Source of the DNA: Rikenellaceae bacterium
GTDB lineage: Bacteria; Bacteroidota; Bacteroidia; Bacteroidales; UBA932
Direction of reading: 5' to 3'
Length of the DNA: 43,457 nucleotides
Assembly (NCBI GenBank): GCA_022777205.1
Contig: JALFGP010000071.1
Coordinates: 1-43,457, forward strand
This document shows positions 6,399-40,847 of this stretch, piece by piece; position 1 is the stretch's first letter, and each line of letters begins with the position of its first letter. The position numbers were made by a program, and so were the translations under genes. Under the pieces are notes generated by a model that ran no database searches, had not been told where the DNA came from, and worked only from the letters and a program-made list of their open reading frames with translations.

Positions 6399-6413
6399 AT
6401 TGATATTCAAGAA

Positions 6414-7193
6414 TTAATCCTTGAATTTTGCAGAGAGGTACTCCCTGTTCAGACGAGCGATATGTCCCACGGTGATATGCTTAGGACATTCCATCTCGCA
6501 GGCCCTGGTGTTGGTGCAGGAACCGAATCCGAGTTCGTCCATCTTTGCAACCATAGCCTTAGCCCTGCGTGCAGCCTCAACCTTACCCTGAGGAAGAAGT
6601 GCGAGCGAGCTGACTCTTGCAGCCACAAAGAGCATTGCAGAACCGTTCTTGCAGGTGGCAACACAAGCACCGCAACCAATACAAGCTGCTCCGTCCATAC
6701 TTTCCTCAGCATTTTCACGCTTGATAGGAATGGCATTGGCATCAGGGACACCGCCAGTGCGGACTGAAACATATCCTCCCGCCTGGAGTATCTTGTCGAA
6801 GGCCTGACGGTCCACAACAAGGTCCTTGATTACAGGGAAACCCTTGCTTCTCCACGGCTCGATGGTGATGGTGTCACCATCCTTGAACTTGCGCATATGG
6901 AGCTGGCAGGTGGTAACCTCATCGTCAGGTCCGTGAGCACGTCCGTTGATGTAAAGTGAGCAGGCTCCGCATATTCCCTCACGGCAGTCGTGATCGAAAG
7001 ACACGGGACCGGAAGACTTGCATCCCTTCTCCACAGCCACAGGGTCCATACCCTCGGTTATAAGCTGCTCATTAAGGATATCAAGCATTTCGAGAAAAGA
7101 GCTGTCAGGAGATATGCCCTTGACCTTGTAGGTCTCGAAATGGCCCTTTTCCTTGGCGTTTTTCTGGCGCCATACTTTCAAAGTCAAATCCAT
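6414..7193 (-). CDS. sdhB: Succinate dehydrogenase/fumarate reductase iron-sulfur subunit
   Basis: 259 aa; [30 protein letters not shown] and [14 protein letters not shown]...[15 protein letters not shown] iron-sulfur ligand sets. Confidence 0.95.
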
Positions 7194-7198
7194 AGTCC

Positions 7199-9145
7199 TT
7201 AATCCTTATAATTTCTTGTTGCGATGTGAATATTCTCGTAGTTGAGAGGTTCCTTATGGAGTTCAGGCTCCTGGCCTTCTCCCTTGTACTCCCACGCAGC
7301 CACGTACATAAAGTTCTTGTCGTCCCTCTTGGTTTCGCCGTCCTCAGTCTGCATTTCCTCACGGAAGTGTCCTCCGCAGGATTCGTTGCGGTGAAGGGCG
7401 TCGATGGCCATAAGTTCTCCGATTTCAAGGAAATCCGCAAGGCGAAGAGCTTTTTCGAGTTCCTGATTGAAGGTTCCCTGCTCTCCTGCCACATAGACAT
7501 TGCTCCAGAACTCCGTCTTGAGGTCCCTGATCATCTTGATACCCTCTTTCAGACCAGCCTCATTGCGGGCCATACCGACGTGCTCCCACATTATGTGACC
7601 GAGTTTCTTATGGATGGAGTCCACGGTTTCGGTACCTTTGATGGAAAGCAGACGCTCAATCTTCTCTCTTACAGCCTTTTCAGCCTCGTCAAACTCAGGG
7701 GCTCCGATATCTGTCTTAGGCTCCTTGAACTTTGAAGCGAGATAATCGCCGATGGTATATGGAAGGATGAAATAACCGTCTGCAAGACCCTGCATAAGCG
7801 CAGATGCTCCGAGGCGGTTTCCACCGTGGTCGGAGAAGTTTGCCTCACCTATTGCATACAGACCCGGAACAGTTGTCTGAAGATTGTAGTCAACCCAAAG
7901 ACCACCCATAGTGTAGTGGATAGCCGGATAGATCATCATAGGCTCCTTATAAGGGTCTGTGGCAGTAATCTTCTCATACATCTGGAAGAGGTTGCCGTAG
8001 CGCTCAGAAATCACCTTCTTGCCCAGACGCTCGATTGCAGTCTTGAAGTCGAGGAATACAGCGAGACCTGTCTCATTCACACCGAAACCGGCATCGCAGC
8101 GCTCCTTTGCTGCACGGGAAGCCACGTCACGAGGCACGAGGTTTCCGAATGCAGGGTAACGGCGCTCGAGATAGTAATCCCTATCCTCTTCCGGAATATC
8201 AGAAGGCTTGATTTCGTGCTTGCGGAGCTTTTCTACATCTTCCTTTTTCTTAGGCACCCAGATACGGCCGTCATTACGCAGAGACTCTGACATAAGAGTC
8301 AGTTTGGACTGCTGCTCGCCGTGTACAGGAATACAGGTAGGGTGAATCTGCGCGAAACAAGGGTTTGCGAAGAAAGCGCCCTTCTTGTAGCACTGCCAAG
8401 CTGCTGAACCATTGGAGTTCATTGCATTGGTTGAGAGGAAATAGGTGTTGCCGTATCCTCCGGAAGCGATTACTACAGCGTGTGCTCCGAAACGCTCGAT
8501 TTCACCTGTAACGAGATTGCGGGCTATGATACCCTTAGCCTCACCATTGATGAGAACAACATCCAGCATCTCGTGACGCGGATATGACTTCACGGTACCT
8601 GCGGCAATCTGGCGGTTCAAAGCGGCATAGGCTCCGAGAAGAAGCTGCTGTCCGGTTTGTCCGCGGGCATAGAAGGTACGGCTAACCTGCGCACCTCCAA
8701 AAGAACGGTTGGCGAGAAGTCCGCCATATTCCCTTGCGAAAGGAACTCCCTGTGCGACACACTGGTCGATGATGTTGTTGCTGACCTCAGCCAGACGATA
8801 GACATTGGCTTCGCGGCTGCGGTAGTCACCTCCCTTGATTGTGTCGTAGAACAGACGATAGATTGAGTCATTGTCGTTCTGATAGTTCTTGGCTGCATTG
8901 ATACCTCCCTGAGCTGCAATTGAGTGCGCCCTGCGCGGAGAATCGCTGATACAGAAGACTTTTACATTGTAGCCGAGTTCGCCGAGTGAAGCAGCTGCAG
9001 ACGCTCCACCGAGACCGGTACCGATGACAATGATTTCCAATTTTTTCTTGTTGCCGGGAGAGACAACTTTGATCTGAGACTTGTGCTTTGTCCATTTTTC
9101 GGCCAAAGGACCCTCAGGAATCTTTGAAATCAATTCTTTTGCCAT
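7199..9145 (-). CDS. sdhA: Succinate dehydrogenase/fumarate reductase flavoprotein subunit
   Basis: ORF extends to 9178; likely start [12 protein letters not shown] at 9145. [73 protein letters not shown]. Confidence 0.96.
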
Positions 9146-9180
9146 TATATATAAAGGTTTATAGATATTGCGTAACAATT

Positions 9181-9230
9181 AGCCTGCAAAAATAATAAAA
9201 CTTTCATCAAGTTCCACCATTTTGCAGGCT
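9181..9230. repeat. Perfect 11-bp inverted repeat upstream of sdhA / downstream of ruvB
   Basis: AGCCTGCAAAA (9181-9191) and TTTTGCAGGCT (9220-9230), 28-nt spacer. Confidence 0.7.
9187..9194 (-). promoter_or_regulatory. Putative -7 element (TATTTTTG) for sdhAB
   Basis: Minus strand TATTTTTG matches TAnnTTTG about 42 bp upstream of the sdhA ATG and overlaps one arm of the inverted repeat. Confidence 0.45.
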
Positions 9231-9252
9231 GAAAATAGGCTATGTAAGAAGA

Positions 9253-10278
9253 TTAATCGAAAAGCAGGTTTTCGTCGGGTGCAGCCCTGTCCAATCCGAG
9301 GTGCCTGTAGGCCAATTCGGTCACTTCCCTACCCCTCGGTGTCCTGACTATAAAACCTTCTTTGATGAGGAATGGCTCATAGACTTCCTCGAGAGTACCC
9401 TGGTCCTCCCCCACCGCCGTGGCAATGGTATTTGCTCCCACAGGTCCGCCCTTGAACTTCGTGATGATGGTCTTGAGTATCTTGTTGTCTATGGCATCCA
9501 GTCCCCTCTTGTCTATGTTCAGAGCATCCAGGGCGTAACGCGCTATCTTGAGGTCAATCACCCCATTGCCTACAACCTGGGCAAAATCCCTTACCCTGCG
9601 CAAAAGCGAATTGGCTATACGTGGAGTACCCCGGCTTCTGAGGGCAACCTCGTGGGCAGCCTCCGCATCTATATCCACCTTAAGTATTGATGCACTGCGA
9701 CATACGATTTTTTCCAAAGTGGAAGTATCATAATATTCCAATGCGCATTTGATGCCGAAACGGGCCCTCAGCGGCGAAGTCAGAAGTCCGCTGCGGGTGG
9801 TGGCTCCAACCAAAGTGAAAGGATTGAGGGAAAGTCTTATGGAACGGGCTCCAGGACCCTTGTCCACCATTATGTCTATCACGAAGTCTTCCATCGCGGA
9901 ATACAGATACTCTTCCACCACAGGCGATAGCCTGTGTATTTCGTCAATGAAAAGCACGTCACCTTCCTCAAGTGAGGTCAAAAGTCCCGCGAGGTCCCCC
10001 GGTTTGTCCAGCACAGGCCCTGATGTCACCTTCATATTCACTCCGAGTTCATTGGCGATGATATGTGCAAGTGTGGTCTTGCCCAAACCCGGAGGTCCGT
10101 GAAAGAGTACGTGATCAAGTGTCTCCCCTCTCATTTTGGCAGCCGCAACGAAGATTTTCAGATTCCGTACTATCTTCTCCTGTCCGGAGAAATCCTCAAG
10201 TTCCTGCGGTCTTATTATTCCGTCTATTTCCTTATCTTTGCCCGCATTCACGTCGTGCGGATTGAAATCAGTCGCCAT
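9253..10278 (-). CDS. ruvB: Holliday junction branch migration DNA helicase RuvB
   Basis: ORF extends to 10305; likely start MATDFNPHD at 10278. [65 protein letters not shown]. Confidence 0.97.
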
Positions 10279-10343
10279 CGGCATCAAAATTAATATTGAA
10301 TACAAAGATAAATTTAATTTTAATTCTAATGATGATATATCTT

Positions 10344-10552
10344 TGTTGAAAATGTTGATAACATAGACAAGCTTCGGAATATCAATATATTATAATGTTA
10401 AAAACTGTTGATTTCGCTATGGAAAAATTCTTGGAAAATAGTTTTTGAAAAGTTTGGAAGTTTGAAAAAATCACGGATATGTACGAATAAAATTCTTATG
10501 CAAAATTAGTTTTCATTAGATTTGCACAGGTTTTCAACAGGTTTTCAACAGG
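10344..10552. promoter_or_regulatory. AT-rich intergenic region with DnaA-box-like 9-mers; candidate replication origin or mfd regulatory region
   Basis: TGTTGAAAA (10344-10352), TGTTGATAA (10353-10361), TGTTGATTT (10406-10414), TTTTCAACA (10531-10539), TTTTCAACA (10542-10550); left and right groups are in opposite orientation. Confidence 0.35.
10517..10524 (+). promoter_or_regulatory. Putative -7 element (TAGATTTG) for mfd
   Basis: TAGATTTG matches TAnnTTTG 33 bp upstream of the mfd ATG. Confidence 0.4.
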
Positions 10553-10556
10553 TAAA

Positions 10557-13500
10557 ATGGGTGAATTGTTAATAAGTCGAAGAGCAACGGAAAAACTATC
10601 CGAAAAATTGGCTGAAGAAAGGAAGGTCTATTGTTCCGGACTGCATTTGTCTGCAAGGTGGTTTGTGGCAGCAAATTCCAGGGTGGAAGGTATCAATTTC
10701 ATTATTCTTCCCGATAGGGAGTCTGCGGAATACTGTGCAGCGGACCTCTATTCCCTTGTGGATGGAGATACGGTATTCTTTCTCCCCGACTCTGGCCGCC
10801 GTATGGAAAGAAGCAGTTACAAGTTTTCTCTCAGTGTGCAGAGGACTTCCGCAATAGGCAAATTGATGGATTATGACGGGAAGTCCAGGCTTTTCTTTGT
10901 GACCTATCCCCTCGCCCTGACGGAAGGTGCTGTAGCGAAGTCTTTTGCAACGGACAGCAATCTGCTTAGGCTCAGGTGTGGCGACAGTATTGACCGTGAT
11001 GAACTTCTCAACCGTCTGGGAGAAATGGGATTCGTGAGGACTGATTTTGTGGGGGAACCGGGACAGTTTGCCGTAAGAGGCTCTGTAATAGACATATTCT
11101 CCTATTCCGACAATAATCCCTACCGATTCACCTTTTTCGGTGATGAGATTGACGGCATAAGTGTATTTGACTGCGGCACCCAATTGTCGAAGGAAAAGCG
11201 GGAGGATGTGGAAATATATCCGGACCTCTCGGCTATGGAGGATGCGTCGGTGCCGGTGCTGTGTCTTCTGCCTCCGGAAAAGACCACCTTGTGGATGGAC
11301 TCTGCCGAACTGTATTCAAAAGAGGAGTTCTATTCCCTCACTGACGACTTCCGAAAAGTATTTCTGCAAGTACCCACCGGCGAGCAGGGGGTGGAACCTG
11401 TGAAATTCAACATAACTCCCCAGCCTGTCTTCAACAAGAATTTCGAACTTCTGTCAGCGGATATAAGGGAAAAGTCCGACAACGGTTACCGCATATTAGT
11501 CTTTGGTGAGAAAAAATCCCAATTGGAGAGGCTTCAGAGCATACTTTTGCAGAATGAGTGCCATTTGCCGGAATTCATCGAAGGAAAGAATATCCACAAC
11601 GGTTTCATTGATAATGACGATAAAATATGCTGCTACACCGATCACGAAATCTTCGACCGCTTCCACAGGGTAAGTCTGCGGCGTACGGTTGAACGCAGTG
11701 AACAGTTGACCATCAATGACCTGACCTCATTCACGGTGGGGGACTACATAGTCCATATTGACTACGGAGTGGGAATTTTCGGAGGGCTGGTGCGCATAAG
11801 GGACGACAAGAACCGTATGCACGAGGTGGTGAAAATCATCTACAAGGACAACGATACTGTCTATGTTTCAGTACATTCCCTGCACAAGATTTCGCGCTTC
11901 AAGTCCAAGGATGGTGAACCGCCGAAAATCTACAAATTGGGGTCGAAGACCTGGCAGAACCTCAAGGCAAATGCAAAATCCAAGGTCAAGGACATAGCGA
12001 AAGACCTGATTCAGCTATATGCAAAACGCAGGGCTTCAAAGGGTTTCGCATTTTCCTCCGACAGTTTCCTGCAGACGGAACTGGAATCTTCATTCATATA
12101 CGAAGACACTCCGGATCAGGAAAAGGCCGTGCAGGCCGTCAAGAGAGATATGGAAGCGGAATGCCCTATGGATCGTCTGGTATGCGGAGATGTAGGCTTC
12201 GGAAAGACGGAAGTGGCCATAAGGGCTGCATTCAAGGCGGCTACGGACGGCAAACAGGTGGCTGTACTTGTACCTACAACTATTCTTGCCCTGCAACATT
12301 ACAAGACTTTCACTGCCCGTCTGAAGGATTTTCCATGCAATGTAGATTTTGTGAGCCGTCTGCGCAGTGCAAAGGAATTGGCTGAAATCAAGAAGAAACT
12401 CAAGAGCGGGGCCATAGACATTCTGATAGGTACTCACAAGATACTCGGTGCAGGTTTCGAATTCAGGGACCTTGGGCTGCTGATAATCGATGAGGAGCAG
12501 AAATTCGGTGTGGGCGCAAAGGAGAAATTGCGTCAGCTCAAGGAATCCGTGGACACTCTGACCCTTACTGCTACACCTATACCGAGGACTCTGCAATTTT
12601 CGCTTCTCGGAGCCCGTGACTTGTCCATAATATCCACACCTCCGCCTAACCGCATACCTGTCCAGACTGAGATTATGCTTTTCGACCCGGATGAAATTCG
12701 AAAAATCATAAACTACGAGCTCAACAGGGGAGGACAGATATTTTTCCTTCACAACAGGGTGGAGGAACTGCAGTCCATTTATGATATTCTGTACCGCCTC
12801 GTGCCCGATATGAAAATCTGCATAGCCCACGGACAGATGGAATCCAAGCAACTGGAAGACAAAATTCTGGATTTTATGTCCGGAGACTACGACCTTCTTC
12901 TTTGTACCACCATCATAGAGAACGGACTGGATATCCCGAATGCCAATACCATCATTATCAACCAGGCTCAGAACATAGGCCTTAGCGATTTGCATCAGCT
13001 GAGGGGCAGGGTAGGGCGTTCGAACCGCAGAGCATTCTGCTACCTAATCGTGCCACCTCTCGTGTCCATAACAGAGGATGCAAGAAGGCGTCTGAAGGCC
13101 ATAGAAGCCTTTTCCGACCTGGGCAGCGGATTCAACATAGCTATGCAGGACCTGGACATCAGGGGTGCCGGAAACCTTCTGGGAGCCGAACAGAGCGGAT
13201 TCATCACCGATATGGGTTTTGAAACCTATCAGAAAATACTGTCGGAGGCAATGGAAGAATTGGGAGTGGAGACAGGACTCACTTCCGGAAATATCAAAGG
13301 CTCTTATGTTTCTGATTGCACCATCGAGACTGACCAGTTGGCTCTAATTCCGGATTCCTATATAAGTCTTTCAGCGGAAAAGATACGCATCTACAAAGAA
13401 TTGGACTCTCTTGGTTCAGACTCTGAAATCGAGACTGTCAAATCCCGTCTTGAAGACCGTTTCGGACCAATACCTGAGGAACTTGCGGCTTTGCTTATGA

Positions 13501-13757
13501 TTGTGAGAATAAGACACAGGGGAGAGAAACTCGGATTTGAGAAAATCATTATCAAAAACGGAATAATGATACTTTTCTTTATAAACAATCCTATGTCCCA
13601 ATATTATAAATCCCCTGTATTTCAATCTGTTATAGAAAGTCTTAACAAAAATCACGATTTTGAACTCAAGCAGAATGACAACCGTCTCAGGCTTGTGAAC
13701 AGAAAGGTTGAAAGCCTGGACAAGGCCTATGCCCTCCTGGGGAAATTGGGAAAATGA
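10557..13757 (+). CDS. mfd: Transcription-repair coupling factor Mfd
   Basis: 1066 aa; RNAP-interaction region (GDYIVHIDYGVGIFGGLVRI), helicase motifs MDRLVCGDVGFGKTEVAIRAAFKA, IIDEEQKFGVGAKEKLRQL, TATPIPRTLQFSLLGARDLSII, LRGRVGRSNRRAFCYL. Confidence 0.97.
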   Translation: MGELLISRRATEKLSEKLAEERKVYCSGLHLSARWFVAANSRVEGINFIILPDRESAEYCAADLYSLVDGDTVFFLPDSGRRMERSSYKFSLSVQRTSAIGKLMDYDGKSRLFFVTYPLALTEGAVAKSFATDSNLLRLRCGDSIDRDELLNRLGEMGFVRTDFVGEPGQFAVRGSVIDIFSYSDNNPYRFTFFGDEIDGISVFDCGTQLSKEKREDVEIYPDLSAMEDASVPVLCLLPPEKTTLWMDSAELYSKEEFYSLTDDFRKVFLQVPTGEQGVEPVKFNITPQPVFNKNFELLSADIREKSDNGYRILVFGEKKSQLERLQSILLQNECHLPEFIEGKNIHNGFIDNDDKICCYTDHEIFDRFHRVSLRRTVERSEQLTINDLTSFTVGDYIVHIDYGVGIFGGLVRIRDDKNRMHEVVKIIYKDNDTVYVSVHSLHKISRFKSKDGEPPKIYKLGSKTWQNLKANAKSKVKDIAKDLIQLYAKRRASKGFAFSSDSFLQTELESSFIYEDTPDQEKAVQAVKRDMEAECPMDRLVCGDVGFGKTEVAIRAAFKAATDGKQVAVLVPTTILALQHYKTFTARLKDFPCNVDFVSRLRSAKELAEIKKKLKSGAIDILIGTHKILGAGFEFRDLGLLIIDEEQKFGVGAKEKLRQLKESVDTLTLTATPIPRTLQFSLLGARDLSIISTPPPNRIPVQTEIMLFDPDEIRKIINYELNRGGQIFFLHNRVEELQSIYDILYRLVPDMKICIAHGQMESKQLEDKILDFMSGDYDLLLCTTIIENGLDIPNANTIIINQAQNIGLSDLHQLRGRVGRSNRRAFCYLIVPPLVSITEDARRRLKAIEAFSDLGSGFNIAMQDLDIRGAGNLLGAEQSGFITDMGFETYQKILSEAMEELGVETGLTSGNIKGSYVSDCTIETDQLALIPDSYISLSAEKIRIYKELDSLGSDSEIETVKSRLEDRFGPIPEELAALLMIVRIRHRGEKLGFEKIIIKNGIMILFFINNPMSQYYKSPVFQSVIESLNKNHDFELKQNDNRLRLVNRKVESLDKAYALLGKLGK

Positions 13758-13800
13758 TGAATTATTTGTAATTTTACGCCCCGTATGCAAAAACGCTAAT

Positions 13801-14526
13801 ATGGCAAATCTATTGGTCGATGTGGGTTATACCGCTCTGAAAGCGGCTTGGGTTGACGGAATCACCCTTGGCAAGACTTTCAGATACCAGGGAGAAAGGA
13901 CTTATGATTTCATAGCAGGTCTGGTCAAAAGGAACAGACCGGAAATAATGGTAATATGCAGTGTTTCCGAAATCACTGAACAGAACATTGCAAGACTCCG
14001 CAAACTTTGCGACCGTCTGCTTCTCATAGATCCGGTCCACACGGAGATTTTATCCGAATTGTCGCTTCCTTCAGAGTGTCTGACTCCGGACCGTGCCTCC
14101 TCCGCAGTTGCCTGCCGTCACCTTTTCAAGGGACGCGGTTGCACGATTTTCGATTTCGGAACTATGATGACCGTGGACTTTCTCGACAAGGAAGGCAATT
14201 ATGATGGTGGAAATATTTCCCTGGGCTGCAGAACCCGTTTCAAGTCGGTTAACCGTTATTCCAAGACTCTTCCTCTACTTGATACTCCTGATGTTTTTCA
14301 GGATATGGGAGACAGTATCCCATCCTCCATTTCCTCCGGCGTTGTGTTGGGCATGGAGTATGAAATCAAGGGCTATATCGAGAGATATCCCGAAAATATG
14401 GTGATTTTTACGGGTGGAGATGCGAATTATTTCGCAAAAAGAATGAAAAACTCTATCTTTGTAGTTTGCAACCTTGTGCTTATGGGGTTGTCGTTAATAG
14501 CAGTCAGATATGATGATAGACAATAG
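13801..14526 (+). CDS. coaX: Type III pantothenate kinase (CoaX), divergent
   Basis: ATG at 13801: MANLLVDVGYTALKAAWVDG...FDFGTMMTVDFLDKEGNYDGGNISLGCRTRFKSV...VIFTGGDANYFAKRMKNSIFVVCNLVLMGL; CoaX architecture with an altered first motif. Confidence 0.85.
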   Translation: MANLLVDVGYTALKAAWVDGITLGKTFRYQGERTYDFIAGLVKRNRPEIMVICSVSEITEQNIARLRKLCDRLLLIDPVHTEILSELSLPSECLTPDRASSAVACRHLFKGRGCTIFDFGTMMTVDFLDKEGNYDGGNISLGCRTRFKSVNRYSKTLPLLDTPDVFQDMGDSIPSSISSGVVLGMEYEIKGYIERYPENMVIFTGGDANYFAKRMKNSIFVVCNLVLMGLSLIAVRYDDRQ

Positions 14527-23374: not shown

Positions 23375-24022
23375 TTATCTGATGCAGGAGTTAATCCACT
23401 CATCATCAATATGAACGAAACCCTGGCCCGGAAGGATGCCGGGGTTTCTTGTCAATATGCCTTCGCAATCTTCATAGACGTTCCAGCCCACCTTCATTCC
23501 GACCATCTGGCCTCCTTTGGCAAAACTGAAAACTATATTGCGGGCCTCTCCTTCCCCCTCAAGACGGTAGAAACGCAATTTTGCGGCAAGACTGGCGTCC
23601 TTTTGTTTCAATTCGTTGAGAGTGACCCATTTGCATAATTCAATCACGGCGTCGTCCAGCCCTGCATCGTCTATCAGTACCTTTTCCATCAGCTCGCCCA
23701 TATCTTTCACAAGCCTCAACTTGTAGCCTCCCATGGCCTTGGTGTGGTTGGTGATGGCGGTCATCTGCGACTCGGAGAAATCATTCCCCGGCACCATCCA
23801 GAACATAAGTTTGCGCTCTGGATCGTGGTAAAGCACTTCGTATTTTGCGAGATTCACCCCTCCGCAATGGGGACATTCCCAGAGGAAGAGGGACCCGTCC
23901 CGCACTTTGGCCTTGAGTTCGGGATTTTCAGCAGTGTTGATGCTTTTGTAAATCGGAATAATATGGGACTGTCCGCATTTTGGACAAATCGCGTTTGCTT
24001 GTGCTTGTATTGACATTTTCAA
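23375..24022 (-). CDS. CpXC domain-containing protein of unknown function
   Basis: 215 aa; N-terminal paired CPKCG...CPHCG zinc-ribbon-like cysteines; QAQANAICPKCGQSHIIPIYKSINTAENPELKAKVRDGSLFLWECPHCG. Confidence 0.8.
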   Translation of the reverse strand: MKMSIQAQANAICPKCGQSHIIPIYKSINTAENPELKAKVRDGSLFLWECPHCGGVNLAKYEVLYHDPERKLMFWMVPGNDFSESQMTAITNHTKAMGGYKLRLVKDMGELMEKVLIDDAGLDDAVIELCKWVTLNELKQKDASLAAKLRFYRLEGEGEARNIVFSFAKGGQMVGMKVGWNVYEDCEGILTRNPGILPGQGFVHIDDEWINSCIR

Positions 24023-24036
24023 AAAAGTTAGTAATA

Positions 24037-27000
24037 TTAAAACATATCGAAACTGAACACAGGTCCGATGTAGAATTTAGGTATATTGTTTACTCCCAAT
24101 TGGTTCCCGACATTGGCAAGCCCGTTCCAGCCCGGGGCACCGTTGAAATTCACGCTTATGCCTATGCTGCAGGGGATGAGCAGCCAGAGTATGCACTGCA
24201 GATCCACTGCCAGGTCGAAGCCGTAGGTCATCAGGCAGCCGGGGCCACTGAGTTTGTTGTTGGGGATGTCGGCCTTGTTGAAGAGGGTGAGGTCTATGTG
24301 AGGGATGAACTGAAGCCTGCGGATATAGATGCAGGAGGCGAGCAGGGAACGGTCTCCGACATAAATCGGGATGGAATAGTCGGCTGACAGTTTGTACAGA
24401 TTGTCGGTCTTGTTGGTCAGGACACTGCGCAGTGTGGCATCCTGGAGGCCTCGGGGGAGTATGTCCACCACGGTGGTGCGGAAAGGGGCACTGTCGTAAA
24501 GGGCCTTCTTTTCTATGCTCGGAATCTTGCCCTGCCACATTCCCGTGAGTTTGACTCCCTGTTCCGGCACCACTCCCGGAAGATAGGCATAACCGTAGGC
24601 GAAGGCGGAAGGGGAGAACCAGTGTGTCATACCCAGAGGTATGTTCACTCCGGCCTGCACTCCTCCTCCCCAGCGGGGATAGATGGCTGAATTGGTGGTC
24701 GGGAGCAGGCTGTAATAGCTCAGGCTGGCCCTCAGATTCTGGGCGGGGAGATTCTTGAGGGAAGATTGCTTGCCGGAGAAATGATACATTTTGCTTCCGT
24801 CCTGAATCTCAGGGAAGACGACTTCGCCAGTGGAAGTCTTAATGGAGTATGGTCTGAAAATATAGGCGTTGGCATCCCTCCAGTCGTTGCTGAGGCTGTA
24901 GCTTATGCGTGGAGTGAGCCCTCTGGACCAGCCGCCGGAGGAGAAGTGGAAAGGTATGTAGGCACTCAGGCTGCCCGTGATGTAGGGCACAGACTGGTCG
25001 CGAAGTTCGGAATAGCTGATTCCGAATCTGCCCGGCTGCAGTTCGTAGGCTGACACCTGTCCCTGTTTTGCCCCCCTGTCGTTGAAGTCCAGATTGAACT
25101 CGAATACAGGGTAGAGCCCGCTGTACTTGAGGTTCAGATGCAGTCCGTTTCTCCAGTGCTTCTTGTCGTATGGGTCCGGATGGACTGAATATCCCGCTAT
25201 ACCTGAAAATGTGCCCAGCTGGTTCTGGATTACGGCTGTGGCTCCGAGTTTTATGTTGTCGAAGATATTGTCTCCCAAGTCCCCGTTCATCAGGGCCGGC
25301 AGGTTCACATAGACCGGAGCCCAGGAATGTACGCGGAACATCTGAGGGAACTTGCGGTAGCGTTTCGGTTCAGACAGCTGCATCGTGTCCGCTCTTGCGC
25401 TCTCACTGGCTATGAAATCCTTGTCTGAGTAGATTTTTTCGGCTCTTCTGCGGGCCTGTTCACTGAGTTTGTCGGCAATGGGCCAGGAGTATCTTTCGTT
25501 CCAGTCCACCTCTTTGTCGAAGAGATGTTCCGTCGCAGTCCTGTATATCATCTTGCCCTTGCGGGTCATGGAAGCGTAATACAGATAATTCCGGTCTTTG
25601 TCGAAGACATAGTCACTTGCTCCATAGCGGGTTGATGTGAGCTGCCTTATGCTTCCGTCCCCAGGCCGGAAACTGTAGAGCTCGTTCACTCCGGTACGGT
25701 CGGAGGTGAAAAGGAGCCTGTCCCCGTCGCTCTGCAAGTCCTTCATCTGTACCGGAGTGGGCCTCAGCAATACTTTCCAATTCCCGTTTTCGAGTTCGGT
25801 GCAATATATGCCGAAACCGTTTTCCGAAATGGCGGTTGCACAAACGATATTTTCATCCATCCACGCAAGGTCCACCAGCTGCAGCGAATCCGGAGCATCC
25901 AGGCATTGCATCAAGGCTCCGTTTTCGGAATCAAGTATATTGAGCATACTGCCTCCTTCGGGTTTAACTCCCACTGCTGCAATGCGTTTACCGTCCCGGG
26001 ATGGCACTGGGTTATAGTCCCAGTTTCCGTGCCGCAGTGTCTTTTTGGACTTGCTGAAAGGTTTTGAATATCTCAAGTCGGAAGTATATCTTACAGTCCA
26101 GCGGGCATCGGGGGTGGCTTCGCTCCAATAGAGCTGCTTTCCGTCAGGAGAGGGGTAGAGTTGGCCGCTGTTGCCGTTGAAAAAACTTATGAATTTCTCT
26201 GGAAATTGTCTGGCAGGTCCCAGGGTGTCTGCGAAATGTCCGCTGAGGTCTATGCGGACAAGCTTGTAATTGTCGTTGAATCCGTGCTTTATGCTGAACA
26301 GGGAGTGCCCGATAATGGTAAAATTCTCATAATCGGCGGTTTTGCGTGGCTCTGCCGTGATTTGCTCCATTGGCATATAGGGCTTTCTGACTTCCGCGTC
26401 CTTCTGCCACACAGCCGTAACGCTGTCCCTTATGGCCGGAAAGGAATGTACCAGGTTCTTGCCTGTGGTGCGCTTGGCCATCACATCCCTCACGTCGAAG
26501 CGGAAAAAATGCTTTGCGGCATAGTGGAGATATTCATCAGTGTAATCGTCCCTGTCATATAGCCAGCGCATTCCCCCGTAGGTGAGATAGCCGAGGGCAT
26601 ACCAGTCTGGGGTATATTTCTTCTGTGACCCGAATCTCCACTGGTCCCAGTCCCTGAGGTCTCCCTGGTCGAAACTTACCATATAATAGTTGAGGAAATC
26701 GGCTTTGCGTCCCCTTCCTGAGCGGGTGAGTTCCGTTTCAGCAATCACAGCATCGCCTTCGAGAAAGGAGGATTCGGTGTAGATGGCCGCTGTGAGTCCG
26801 TTCCACATTTCGCCGAGGAACCAGCCGATGACTCCCTGGGTACTGTCCAGTCCGAATTGCATCTGGCTGATGTGGCGGGATTCGTGAACTGCCAGCTGGG
26901 TTATCCAGGGATGGGCTTCTGAACCGTAAATCTGGGGAATGGTGAAAGCATCCATTCGCTTCGGTGCCCAGGCCACGGAGCCGTTTGAGATGGCGTTATG

Positions 27001-27276
27001 CGGGTGGAGCACCACAGGCATTCTGCCCCTGATTTTTTCACCAGGAAGGTAGCCTGAAGTGAGCCCCACAGGTCTGCGGAACTTTTCAAGTTCGCGGGCG
27101 TATTCCCGTGCCAGGGAATCTAAACCAAGAGGATAGATGACTTTGTAGTTTTCCGATTCTATGCTGTACCACCTGCTGAACCTGTCGTCCCCCACAGAAT
27201 AGAACTGCGCCCCTGCTCCCAAATGGACCAGAGTCAGCAAAACTGCAAGGGCGAGTCTTTTCAAATTCGCTTTCAT
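24037..27276 (-). CDS. Large secreted or outer-membrane protein: HExxH metalloprotease-like domain, beta-propeller-like repeats, C-terminal beta-barrel-like region
   Basis: ORF extends to 27429; likely start MKANLKRLALAVLLTLVHLGAGAQ at 27276. QLAVHESRHISQMQFG ... SSFLEGDAVIAETEL; propeller-like strands (SPDGKQLYWSEATPDARWTV, VPSRDGKRIAAVGV, LLFTSDRTGVNELYSF); C-terminal amphipathic strands ending FSFDMF. Confidence 0.8.
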   Translation of the reverse strand: MKANLKRLALAVLLTLVHLGAGAQFYSVGDDRFSRWYSIESENYKVIYPLGLDSLAREYARELEKFRRPVGLTSGYLPGEKIRGRMPVVLHPHNAISNGSVAWAPKRMDAFTIPQIYGSEAHPWITQLAVHESRHISQMQFGLDSTQGVIGWFLGEMWNGLTAAIYTESSFLEGDAVIAETELTRSGRGRKADFLNYYMVSFDQGDLRDWDQWRFGSQKKYTPDWYALGYLTYGGMRWLYDRDDYTDEYLHYAAKHFFRFDVRDVMAKRTTGKNLVHSFPAIRDSVTAVWQKDAEVRKPYMPMEQITAEPRKTADYENFTIIGHSLFSIKHGFNDNYKLVRIDLSGHFADTLGPARQFPEKFISFFNGNSGQLYPSPDGKQLYWSEATPDARWTVRYTSDLRYSKPFSKSKKTLRHGNWDYNPVPSRDGKRIAAVGVKPEGGSMLNILDSENGALMQCLDAPDSLQLVDLAWMDENIVCATAISENGFGIYCTELENGNWKVLLRPTPVQMKDLQSDGDRLLFTSDRTGVNELYSFRPGDGSIRQLTSTRYGASDYVFDKDRNYLYYASMTRKGKMIYRTATEHLFDKEVDWNERYSWPIADKLSEQARRRAEKIYSDKDFIASESARADTMQLSEPKRYRKFPQMFRVHSWAPVYVNLPALMNGDLGDNIFDNIKLGATAVIQNQLGTFSGIAGYSVHPDPYDKKHWRNGLHLNLKYSGLYPVFEFNLDFNDRGAKQGQVSAYELQPGRFGISYSELRDQSVPYITGSLSAYIPFHFSSGGWSRGLTPRISYSLSNDWRDANAYIFRPYSIKTSTGEVVFPEIQDGSKMYHFSGKQSSLKNLPAQNLRASLSYYSLLPTTNSAIYPRWGGGVQAGVNIPLGMTHWFSPSAFAYGYAYLPGVVPEQGVKLTGMWQGKIPSIEKKALYDSAPFRTTVVDILPRGLQDATLRSVLTNKTDNLYKLSADYSIPIYVGDRSLLASCIYIRRLQFIPHIDLTLFNKADIPNNKLSGPGCLMTYGFDLAVDLQCILWLLIPCSIGISVNFNGAPGWNGLANVGNQLGVNNIPKFYIGPVFSFDMF

Positions 27277-27391: not shown

Positions 27392-27462
27392 AGAAAAAGA
27401 AATAATATTTTTCTTGATTTGATTGGCAATAGTTTTTAACTTCGCAGGATATGATTTTTTGT

Positions 27463-28422
27463 ATGAAGAGGATTCTCATATACGCAATGGCAGTGCTTGC
27501 GGTTGTGGGCTGCGGCGGAAGGACGACATCAAAGAAGGCGGATATATCCCCCACCCTTCCGTTCCCCCAGGTGCAGGTGCCGGCAATGATTGAAGACAGG
27601 GAAGAGGCTATGGAATACGCTGCGTTGCACTATTTCGACAAGCTCGCAGATCCGGCCCGCAAAGGCGTATGCGATTCCCTGACTGTGGCTTCCGTGGCGG
27701 CCGGGGAGGTGGAACAGGCGGTGTCTTCCTGGTGCTACCTTTTGGACAATTTGCCGCTGCCGACTGCACGCAAGGCTGCTTCAAGGCTTTTCCAGAGAGC
27801 GGAATCCTGCGAAATGGCAGACACTTCCTCCAATGTTTTCGAGTCCATAGTGGCCCTTGTGGACAGATATCTCTACGACCCCAATTCGCCCGTGCGCAAT
27901 GAGGACATTTATCAGGCCTTCGTGCAGGAAAAATCGCTTTCAAGCCTCTTTACCGATGAACAGAGGCAGGGCTTTGCAGAGACTGTCAGACGCTGCGGAC
28001 TCAATCAGGTGGGTACCAGGGCCGCGGATTTCATTTTTTCCGACCGCAACGGCCGCACGGGGCATCTCTATGGAGTGAAAGCCGAGACCACAATCCTATT
28101 TTTCTCGAATCCCGGCTGCAATGCCTGCAAGGAAATCATAGATGCCCTCAAATCCCGGCCTGAAATGGAGGATATGATAAAATCGGGAGATTTGGCCGTG
28201 GTGAACGTATATATAGACGAGGACCTCGGGGAATGGTACGGATATATGGGCGAATACCCATTGTCGTGGCATAATGTATATGACCCCAATCTGGTAATCC
28301 GCAACGACCTGCTCTATGATGTGAGGGCTATTCCTTCGCTCTATCTGCTGAACAGGGACAAAATAGTTTTGCTCAAAGACACCACTACAGAGAAACTGCT
28401 GGCCTCTGTATTCGGCAACTGA
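27463..28422 (+). CDS. Thioredoxin-like lipoprotein (DUF5106/TlpA-like)
   Basis: ORF opens at 27451; likely start MKRILIYAMAVLAVVGCGG at 27463 (lipobox VVGC). C-terminal thioredoxin-like: ETTILFFSNPGCNACKEIIDAL...YDVRAIPSLYLLNRDKIVLLKD (CNAC motif, cis-Pro context). Confidence 0.85.
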   Translation: MKRILIYAMAVLAVVGCGGRTTSKKADISPTLPFPQVQVPAMIEDREEAMEYAALHYFDKLADPARKGVCDSLTVASVAAGEVEQAVSSWCYLLDNLPLPTARKAASRLFQRAESCEMADTSSNVFESIVALVDRYLYDPNSPVRNEDIYQAFVQEKSLSSLFTDEQRQGFAETVRRCGLNQVGTRAADFIFSDRNGRTGHLYGVKAETTILFFSNPGCNACKEIIDALKSRPEMEDMIKSGDLAVVNVYIDEDLGEWYGYMGEYPLSWHNVYDPNLVIRNDLLYDVRAIPSLYLLNRDKIVLLKDTTTEKLLASVFGN

Positions 28423-30294: not shown

Positions 30295-30331
30295 TTATGT
30301 GACTCAATAAGAATTGCGAAACTTGAGGAGA

Positions 30332-31705
30332 ATGAAAAGGGTTTTGATTATTACATATTATTGGCCGCCTTCCGGGGGATCGGGGGTGCAGAGATGGGTC
30401 AAGTTTGCGCGTTATCTGCCTGAACTTGGGTGGCAGCCTGTGGTTTATACACCTGAGAATCCGGAACTTACCAGCACTGACACTTCACTTGAAGCTGAAA
30501 TTCCTTCGGAAGTGGAGGTAATTAAGACTCATATTTTCGAGCCTTATTCTCTTATGCGCTGCCTCACGGGCAAGAAGGAGAAATCTGCCCGCAGCAACGA
30601 CCCCAATGCTGTCGTCACCCCTATCAATGCCCAGAAAAAGAGTTTCGTGCAGAACCTTATGCTTTGGATCCGGGGAAACTGCTTCATTCCGGACCCCCGC
30701 TGTATGTGGATACTGCCGTCCATAAAATATCTCAAGAAATACCTCAGGGAATATCCGGTGGATCTCATAGTCAGTTCCGGTCCGCCCCATTCAATGCATC
30801 TGATTGCCAGGAAAGTCTCTCTCGATATGGGGATTCCGTGGATTGTAGACTTCCGTGACCCGTGGACCAAGATGTTCTATTTCAAGCACTTGAAACTTAC
30901 AGCCTTCACCCGCAGAATGCACGAGAAGCTGGAAAAGAAAGTGCTGGACGATGCCAATCTCATCGTTTCTGTCTCCCCTATGGTGCAGGAAGATTTCAGG
31001 AAAATGACCTCTACGCCTGTCGAACTCGTAACCAACGGATACGATCAGCAGGATGTGGACGATGCCATAGAGCAGCTTGATGTGTCCGAAAAAAACTATG
31101 GTGAAGAGAATACTGAACTGTTCAATATTGTGCATACGGGAGTGTTTGCTTCCGACGGCAATCCGGACAAACTCTGGAAGGTGCTCGGGGAAATCGCTGA
31201 GGAAAATCCGGAGTTCCGCACCCGTACCAGAATCAGGCTGGTGGGTAAGACCGATATACAAATTCTGGATTCAATAGAGAGGGCCGGACTTGAGGGAATG
31301 ACTGAAAATCTCGGATATGTGAGCCATGAAACGGCAGTTATGGAGCAATGTGCCGCAGGAGTGCTTATTTTGCCGCTGAGGAAGGAACCCGAGTGCAGGG
31401 CCACACTTCCCGGCAAACTTTTCGAATATCTCGCTTCCAGAAGACCTGTAATCGGCTTCGGGGACCCGGACGGGGCAATGGGCCGCATAATCACCGGTGC
31501 AAAGGCTGGGAAAACCTTCGACTGGGATGATGAATCCAATCTGAAGGCCGAAATCCTGCGTCTGTGGGACCTGTTCCGGCAAGGCAGGCTTTCAGACAGC
31601 GAAGAAGACATTGAAGCATTTTCCCGCATACGCCTTACCCGCCGGATGGCCGAACTGTTCGACAAGGTGCTGCTGGAAAAAGCAACGGAATATGGCAACA
31701 ACTAA
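30332..31705 (+). CDS. Glycosyltransferase (GT-B, family 4-like)
   Basis: Start MKRVLIITYYWPPSGGSGVQRWVKFARYLPELGW at 30332; C-terminal CAAGVLILPLRKEPECRATLPGKLFEYLASRRPVIGFG. Confidence 0.9.
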   Translation: MKRVLIITYYWPPSGGSGVQRWVKFARYLPELGWQPVVYTPENPELTSTDTSLEAEIPSEVEVIKTHIFEPYSLMRCLTGKKEKSARSNDPNAVVTPINAQKKSFVQNLMLWIRGNCFIPDPRCMWILPSIKYLKKYLREYPVDLIVSSGPPHSMHLIARKVSLDMGIPWIVDFRDPWTKMFYFKHLKLTAFTRRMHEKLEKKVLDDANLIVSVSPMVQEDFRKMTSTPVELVTNGYDQQDVDDAIEQLDVSEKNYGEENTELFNIVHTGVFASDGNPDKLWKVLGEIAEENPEFRTRTRIRLVGKTDIQILDSIERAGLEGMTENLGYVSHETAVMEQCAAGVLILPLRKEPECRATLPGKLFEYLASRRPVIGFGDPDGAMGRIITGAKAGKTFDWDDESNLKAEILRLWDLFRQGRLSDSEEDIEAFSRIRLTRRMAELFDKVLLEKATEYGNN

Positions 31706-38678: not shown

Positions 38679-40847
38679 TCAGCGGACGATGTCCATCTCC
38701 TCAATCAGGTGGGATGCTCCGCCGAACTTGTCTATAATCAGGAGCACATAGCGTATGTCCACATTGATGCACCTCTGGAGGTTCGGCTCGAACATTATGT
38801 CGGAACTCATTGATTCCCAGTTGCCGTCGAAGGCCAGGCCTATGAGTTCGCCCTTGGCATTCATTATAGGGGAACCTGAGTTCCCGCCGGTGATGTCGTT
38901 GTTGCTGAGGAAGCAGGTGTGCACCTTGCCGTCCTTGTCCGCGTACTGGCCGAAATCTTTTGCAGCGTGGATTTGCTTGAGTTTTTCAGGCACAGCAAAT
39001 TCCCAGCTTGTCTGGTCGTCCTTCTCCATCACTCCGTCCAGTGTGGTGAACCAGTCGTATTCCACTGCATCGGCAGGGGAGTAGCCCATAACCTTGCCGT
39101 AGGTCAGCCTCATAGTGAAGTTGGCATCCGGGTAGGAAGGCTGTCCTTTCTTCCACTCGAGATTGCCCGCAGTCCAGGCTTTGCGGCCCTTGGCCAATTG
39201 TTGGCCGTATTCTGCTGCTGAGGCCCCGAAACTGAGGTATTTGCTTAGTATTGATGAGTAAAGTTTGGTGGCAGGGTCGGAGTAAACTGCACTGATGCCC
39301 TGGTTCTCAATGGCTTCATAAGCCTTTTCCGCACTTGTGAAGATGCTTTCGGCAAAGAGCCTGTCCACATAGGCAGAAATGCTGTCCTTGCTGTAGTCCG
39401 GTATGATCCAGTAGGCTGAGTCTGTCTTTTCGTGGTAGAGGCGGAGCATTGCTTCCGTGATTTTCCTGTCGGTGGAAAGGGAGTAATCCTTGTACGGGTC
39501 GCGTTCCCTGATGAAGTCTATGGTAGCCTTCACCACAGCTGCGCTGTCCAGTCCTTGCTTGACGGCTTTGCGTGCACCTGAGGATGCCATACCTCCCATA
39601 CGGGCGAGCTCACTCATATATACGGTCTCGATAATCCAGGTGGAGATTTCGGAAAGCTTTTGCGTGCCTTCGACTGCCGTGCGGATGTCGCTGAGCGCGT
39701 TTGCATATTTCTCTGTCCTTTCCGGATCGGCTGCTGTCCATTCCATAAATGCCGCTTCTTCCTCTTCGGCCCTCTCGATCACTCCCAGTTTGCGGAAGGC
39801 TATTTTCATTCCCTTCCATTTTTTCCATCCGTTGGATGAACCGGAGTATTTGCTGGCATACTGGATTTTCACTTTAGGGTCTGCCTGCATATCTTCCATC
39901 ATAAGGTTCTGACGGAGGGTACGGGCCTCGATGCGGATGTCGTTCTGTGCGAGCATCTGACGCAATTCCGCAGAGGTGCCGAAACGGTTGGTGCGCCCTG
40001 GATAGCCCATAATCATAGTGTAGTCCCCGCTCCTGACTCCCTTGAGGGAAATTTTCAAATGGTTCTTAGGTTGCAGAGGCTTATTTTCCGGACTGTAGTC
40101 TGCCGGTTCGTTGTCCGCTCCGGCATAGACACGGAACATAGAGAAGTCGCAGGTGTGACGCGGCCACATCCAGTTGTCGGTGTCAGCTCCGAATTTGCCT
40201 ATGGTGGAAGGCGGCGCTCCGACAAAACGGACATCACGATAGACCTTATACACTACGAGCAATTGCATATTGTCGTTGTAGAATGAGAAAACCTCGGCTT
40301 CACAGTTGGGATATTTTTCTTCTGAGGCGCTGACGAGTTCATCCTTCTTTGCCTTTACGGCATCCTGAATACGGACATATACATCTGCACTGTCCCTGTA
40401 GCTTTCCCGGGCCAGAGCCTCGGCTGCAGCAATTTCATCTGTGACATCGCTTATGCTTTCCAGGAATTTTACAGTGAGGCCCTCGCAAGGCAGTTCCTCG
40501 CTGCGCTGCATTGCCCAGAATCCGTCCTGGAGGTAGTTGTGCTCAATGCTGCTGAGGGCCTGGATGAAGGAATAACCGCAGTGGTGGTTGGTGATGAGCA
40601 GGCCCTCGTCGGAAATCATTTCGCCTGTGCATCCTCCTCCGAACTGCACGATGGCATCTTTGAGGGATATTCCGTCGGCGTTGTAGATCTGTTTCGGGGA
40701 GAGTTTGCAGCCCATCTTCTTCATCTGTTTTGCGTTCATTTGTTCGAGCCGCTGGAGCAGCCACATTCCTTCGTCTGCTTTCAGGCTGAACGCTGAGCCT
40801 GCCAGGAGTGCTGTCACTACAGACAGCGATAACAAGATTTTCTTCAT
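38679..40847 (-). CDS. S46 family dipeptidyl-peptidase, DPP7-like by specificity residue
   Basis: 722 aa; signal peptide, GCTGEMISDEGLLITNHHCGYSFIQALSS (catalytic His), DTDNWMWPRHTCDFSMFRVY, SNNDITGGNSGSPIMNAKGELIGLAFDGNWESMSSD (catalytic Ser). Confidence 0.95.
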   Translation of the reverse strand: MKKILLSLSVVTALLAGSAFSLKADEGMWLLQRLEQMNAKQMKKMGCKLSPKQIYNADGISLKDAIVQFGGGCTGEMISDEGLLITNHHCGYSFIQALSSIEHNYLQDGFWAMQRSEELPCEGLTVKFLESISDVTDEIAAAEALARESYRDSADVYVRIQDAVKAKKDELVSASEEKYPNCEAEVFSFYNDNMQLLVVYKVYRDVRFVGAPPSTIGKFGADTDNWMWPRHTCDFSMFRVYAGADNEPADYSPENKPLQPKNHLKISLKGVRSGDYTMIMGYPGRTNRFGTSAELRQMLAQNDIRIEARTLRQNLMMEDMQADPKVKIQYASKYSGSSNGWKKWKGMKIAFRKLGVIERAEEEEAAFMEWTAADPERTEKYANALSDIRTAVEGTQKLSEISTWIIETVYMSELARMGGMASSGARKAVKQGLDSAAVVKATIDFIRERDPYKDYSLSTDRKITEAMLRLYHEKTDSAYWIIPDYSKDSISAYVDRLFAESIFTSAEKAYEAIENQGISAVYSDPATKLYSSILSKYLSFGASAAEYGQQLAKGRKAWTAGNLEWKKGQPSYPDANFTMRLTYGKVMGYSPADAVEYDWFTTLDGVMEKDDQTSWEFAVPEKLKQIHAAKDFGQYADKDGKVHTCFLSNNDITGGNSGSPIMNAKGELIGLAFDGNWESMSSDIMFEPNLQRCINVDIRYVLLIIDKFGGASHLIEEMDIVR

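Follow-up and report, generated by a model that had tools for sequence, protein, structure and literature searches.

The gene studied here encodes a protein of 1079 amino acids in a Rikenellaceae bacterium, and it raises the question of whether one polypeptide can join a zinc peptidase, a β-propeller and an outer-membrane barrel and, if so, what such a chain might do for the cell. Within the window (the whole 43,457-nucleotide stretch of DNA that we analyzed), the gene occupies 24037..27276, exactly the interval given in an initial annotation. That annotation had left out the strand, which is minus: the open reading frame sits on the minus strand, and the plus strand across 24037-27276 holds many stops. 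A mechanically called frame reaches 27429, where it begins with a TTG. Because beginning at the ATG at 27276 results in a clean signal peptide, this ATG, rather than the TTG at 27429, would be the sensible choice of true start for the 1079-residue product. Read from the ATG, residues 1–23 (27208..27276, minus strand) make up a Sec-type signal peptide, as had been noticed initially, with predicted cleavage before Gln24; the junction with the mature protein reads MKANLKRLALAVLLTLVHLGAGA followed by QF, the signal ending in AGA before the Gln. Gln24 was kept in all 55 aligned sequences that reach its column, in agreement with the Q-rule described for Bacteroidetes (PMC5837995).

The gene is present in one copy in its source genome, and its closest named relatives come from metagenome-assembled genomes labelled Rikenellaceae and Bacteroidales. 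Its dN/dS was 0.12 and 0.11 in comparisons with two near relatives, and was lowest in the peptidase part (0.09, a value resting on few changes). The gene is under purifying selection.

Peptidase, propeller and barrel domains

The initial annotation had singled out the motifs HESRHISQ and EGDAVIAET, which are present at residues 131–138 and 173–181, respectively. We assessed their conservation in an alignment of 59 sequences, which counted in the window protein and excluded two near-duplicates. The HExxH residues H131, E132 and H135, within HESRH (residues 131–135; 26872..26886, minus strand), were kept in 58 of the 59 sequences, the one true loss being in L005; in L053 the motif reads HEYRHALQ. 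Within EGDAVIAET (26734..26760, minus strand), E173, G174 and A176 were found in 59/59. A third motif, YALGY (residues 226–230; 26587..26601, minus strand), contains a conserved pair of tyrosines (58/59 and 57/59) that are possibly catalytic. Because the HExxH and EGxA positions within HESRHISQ and EGDAVIAET are near-invariant over the 59-sequence alignment, these motifs are not chance occurrences. The segment spanning residues 116–235 was the most conserved of the regions compared, with a mean entropy of 1.83 bits, versus 2.53 bits for the propeller and barrel in the same 59 sequences. Gluzincins take their third zinc ligand from the Glu of such an EGxA motif. H131 and H135 would correspondingly be candidate zinc ligands, with E173 as the proposed third ligand and E132 as the proposed catalytic residue.

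The window protein itself matched no Pfam peptidase model. The family profile did reach distant relatives of similar length from the same phylum, and six that we fetched (L152, L155, L081, L084, L080 and L070) matched PF13485 (Peptidase_MA_2) above its curated cut-off. Aligning the N-terminal profiles of the family and of the distant (L070) group with hhalign gave an E value of 2.2e-23 over 256 columns, and the motifs paired in register, HExxH on HExxH and EGD on EGT. In addition, three family members matched DUF2268, a predicted Zn-dependent protease. Together, these comparisons support the assignment of residues ~24–300 (26377..27207, minus strand) to a putative MA-clan peptidase domain of the gluzincin type, in line with what had been guessed from the motifs, and on the strength of the conserved residues we consider it probable that the domain binds zinc and has peptidase activity. 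A PDB search with the peptidase profile of the distant relatives found no solved relative of this domain. AlphaFold models built from an input of four sequences, of which three were almost the same, were of low confidence for both the full protein (pLDDT 31) and the peptidase domain (pLDDT 37.5).

The idea of a large subfamily lacking HExxH was dropped when five suspected relatives turned out to carry HExxH after all, only without the Q/H three residues on. In L146, L147 and L151, which belong to other families of the phylum, HExxH takes the form HE(M/L)VHVF and the pattern [N/E]EGxA gave no match; these three may represent a sister subfamily.

The central part of the protein, which had been described as propeller-like, matched PD40 above the cut-off, and the family profile matched TolB structures with an E value of 8e-14, indicating a TolB/WD40-like propeller at residues ~311–620 (25417..26346, minus strand). 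TolB is a protein with a propeller of the same type, but it is soluble and has neither peptidase nor barrel. We ruled out identity with TolB itself, because the score was 18.9 bits against an equivalog cut-off of 343, as well as an S9 peptidase of the DPP IV type, because DPPIV_N scored 22.6 against a cut-off of 22, yet there was no match to the S9 catalytic domain.

Residues ~636–1079 (24040..25371, minus strand) required comparisons both direct and through intermediates. On its own, the window protein gave no match to PF01103 (Omp85). A first profile comparison, made with a shallow alignment, reached Omp85 at an E value of 0.011 and placed PRGL on the Omp85 RG(W/Y); a deeper direct comparison with the Omp85 proteins of the phylum gave 1.4e-4, which is weak, against 0.013 for a FadL-type control. 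The chain through intermediates was much stronger: the C terminus of the family aligned with that of the distant relatives at 3e-8 over 313 columns, and the C terminus of the distant relatives aligned with Omp85 at 2e-15 (FadL control, 0.17). Nine distant relatives were matched by the Omp85 profile with E values of about 2e-5 or better. PRGL itself (residues 941–944; 24445..24456, minus strand) aligned in register by hhalign with the Omp85 RG(F/Y/W) motif, and within it G943 was kept in 57/59 sequences and R942 in 44/59. Moreover, in L147 a single chain of 957 amino acids carries PD40, Omp85 (PF01103, 55 bits against a cut-off of 24) and Peptidase_MA_2 at 32.0 bits, just missing the cut-off of 32.4, and the family profile matched L147 across all three parts. 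These results, weak directly and strong through intermediates, support a predicted Omp85-type barrel, which narrows the more general C-terminal barrel proposed at the outset. The terminal Phe that had accompanied that proposal is present in the window protein, and 42 of the 59 sequences have an aromatic residue within their last three positions. At the level of sequence comparison, profile methods establish the identities of the domains and the conservation of the motifs, and with them they support the initial three-part reading.

Distribution and gene neighbourhood

The initial annotation had regarded the fusion as unusual, a view that the distribution of the family contradicts. Matches were found in 174 of the 295 genomes of the order, with 121/295 lacking a match at the cut-off, and in 253 of 393 genomes of the phylum at E 1e-10, although in some of the weak matches the propeller may be the only part that aligns. 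No further relatives came to light in viral contigs, and a protein search gave no match among plasmid records. The three-part protein is widespread, conserved and built from known parts, and it is undescribed in the open-licence literature that we searched, where we found no paper describing its function.

The gene neighbourhood is mostly kept in near relatives. A CpXC gene (23375..24022, minus strand; PF14353, E 9e-35) lies 14 bp downstream of the gene for the three-domain protein, adjoins it in all four loci compared, and is probably co-transcribed with it. On the other side, the divergent neighbour at 27451-28422 (plus strand), encoding DUF5106 and a thioredoxin-like domain, is likewise retained here by near relatives. 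The window also contains a variable slot at 30314-31705 (plus strand), where a glycosyltransferase-like gene shows 73% identity to its counterpart in L001/L002 while neighbouring genes show 94–100%, and a Peptidase S46 gene at 38679-40847 (minus strand; PF10459, E 8e-233), of the family of DPP7/DPP11-type dipeptidyl peptidases. We saw no functional hint in the neighbourhood, either in the window or in the loci compared.

Possible roles at the outer membrane

Among published proteins, those of the WD40-Omp85 subfamily come closest; in this subfamily, a WD40/TolB-like propeller lies N-terminal to an Omp85 barrel (Heinz & Lithgow 2014, PMC4104836). The window protein resembles this subfamily in having its propeller (PD40 above cut-off; TolB structures at E 8e-14) before the barrel, in the Omp85 type of that barrel, which was reached from the window protein convincingly only through intermediates, and in its lack of POTRA, a model absent from the matches of the window protein and 28 family members at E values up to 0.1. 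Unlike the subfamily, it has an MA-clan peptidase domain ahead of the propeller. The word 'peptidase' is absent from the main text of the survey, and the 'Metallo' subfamily named there rests on PF00149, a domain other than the MA-clan peptidase (PMC4104836).

The main text of the same survey proposes a general role for WD40-Omp85 proteins (PMC4104836), and the protein could accordingly be a purely structural, non-catalytic member playing that role. This alternative draws on a tandem duplicate in a genome of the same genus (L156, in G008:C2). In the copy at 6407-9373, NMSRR replaces HExxH and the Tyr pair 226/230 is lost too, while E173 is kept; the copy at 9396-12458 is intact, with HESRH and EGDA. 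Such a joint loss of HExxH and the Tyr pair, next to a copy that keeps both, is the pattern to be expected if one duplicate no longer had to be catalytic. Because this same-genus tandem copy lacks HExxH, catalysis is not required in every copy, and because it retains the whole architecture, a putatively non-catalytic form of the three-domain protein also exists. (In the same locus, a sodium/phosphate cotransporter-like gene at 12582-14363 lies between the duplicated genes and a lipoprotein gene, a position at which the window has no gene.) A structural role for the whole family, however, would leave the conservation of HExxH in 58/59 sequences unexplained, and it sits poorly with the absence of POTRA from the window protein and the 28 family members; we consider it rather unlikely.

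The reading that we prefer, with our confidence evenly balanced, is that of a zinc peptidase anchored in the outer membrane and working in the periplasm, perhaps for the quality control of outer-membrane proteins, a role that we infer. After Sec export and cleavage before Gln24, the C-terminal Omp85-type barrel would insert into the outer membrane, and the propeller, with the zinc peptidase N-terminal to it, would lie on the periplasmic face. There, H131, H135 and E173 would hold zinc, E132 would activate water, and the propeller would probably recognize a substrate or a partner protein close to the membrane. Such a protein would most likely clip or remove envelope proteins at the outer membrane, as BepA does in E. 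coli, but with peptidase, propeller and barrel in one chain. BepA is an M48 periplasmic metalloprotease without fused barrel or propeller, whereas the window protein is of the Peptidase_MA_2 type; identity with BepA or another M48 protease was ruled out by the absence of an M48 match in the window protein and its family. The likeness is functional only, BepA being a zinc protease that acts on outer-membrane proteins at BAM and, together with YcaL and LoiP, one of the zinc proteases in outer-membrane protein biogenesis (PMC13067283). This analogy (PMC13067283) points to a part in the quality control of outer-membrane proteins, and we advance a quality-control or maturation role only tentatively. 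A link to barrel assembly is not supported, because the available text of the 2025 papers on the Bacteroidota BAM complex names no subunit of this kind (PMC12611786, PMC12578637).

A narrower possibility is that the peptidase matures a single dedicated substrate or a handful of them, for instance an envelope protein whose gene lies elsewhere, instead of exercising general quality control. The propeller could confer the specificity that this would take, and the patchy presence in the order, with 121/295 genomes lacking a match at the cut-off, would be surprising in a protease with general housekeeping duties. On the other hand, no candidate substrate gene is linked to the locus, and the gene is widely spread in the phylum, so that we judge such dedicated processing unlikely.

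The periplasmic placement in our preferred reading draws on other Omp85 proteins. As in the window protein, an N-terminal enzyme domain is joined to an Omp85 barrel in the Patatin-Omp85 protein PlpD, which differs in having a lipase-type patatin domain and POTRA where the window protein has a zinc peptidase and a propeller; the absence of both patatin and POTRA matches ruled out identity with PlpD. The enzyme domain of PlpD has been shown experimentally to stay in the periplasm, as N-terminal domains do in the Omp85 proteins studied so far (PMC11116518). Because the N-terminal domains of Omp85 proteins, including the PlpD enzyme, are periplasmic, the peptidase and propeller are likely held just inside the outer membrane, and we are fairly confident that the peptidase would be on the periplasmic side. 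A barrel with an even number of strands normally has both of its ends facing the periplasm. Quite improbable, then, is a surface-exposed protease whose barrel displays the other two domains on the outside of the cell for external protein digestion or surface-lipoprotein processing: much Bacteroidota machinery does lie outside, with BAM accessory proteins largely extracellular in the available text of the 2025 papers (PMC12611786, PMC12578637), but an even-stranded barrel would argue for the opposite orientation, and PlpD, formerly thought to work in this way, retains its enzyme domain in the periplasm (PMC11116518).

In E. coli the corresponding roles are split, BepA being the zinc protease and BamB the propeller, with an Omp85 barrel in addition. 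A bolder extension of our reading, which we hold to be fairly doubtful, is that an undescribed, phylum-wide class of single-chain outer-membrane quality-control proteases fuses the roles of BepA, BamB and the Omp85 barrel, and that in some species a duplicate has turned into a non-catalytic partner. Little is known of how Bacteroidota keep watch over an outer membrane so rich in protein, and the first structures of their BAM complexes date only from 2025. A widespread protein that has its own zinc peptidase, propeller and Omp85 barrel provides a concrete candidate for this task, and the natural pair of an intact and an HExxH-less copy within the same genus would offer a direct route to learning which of its functions need catalysis.
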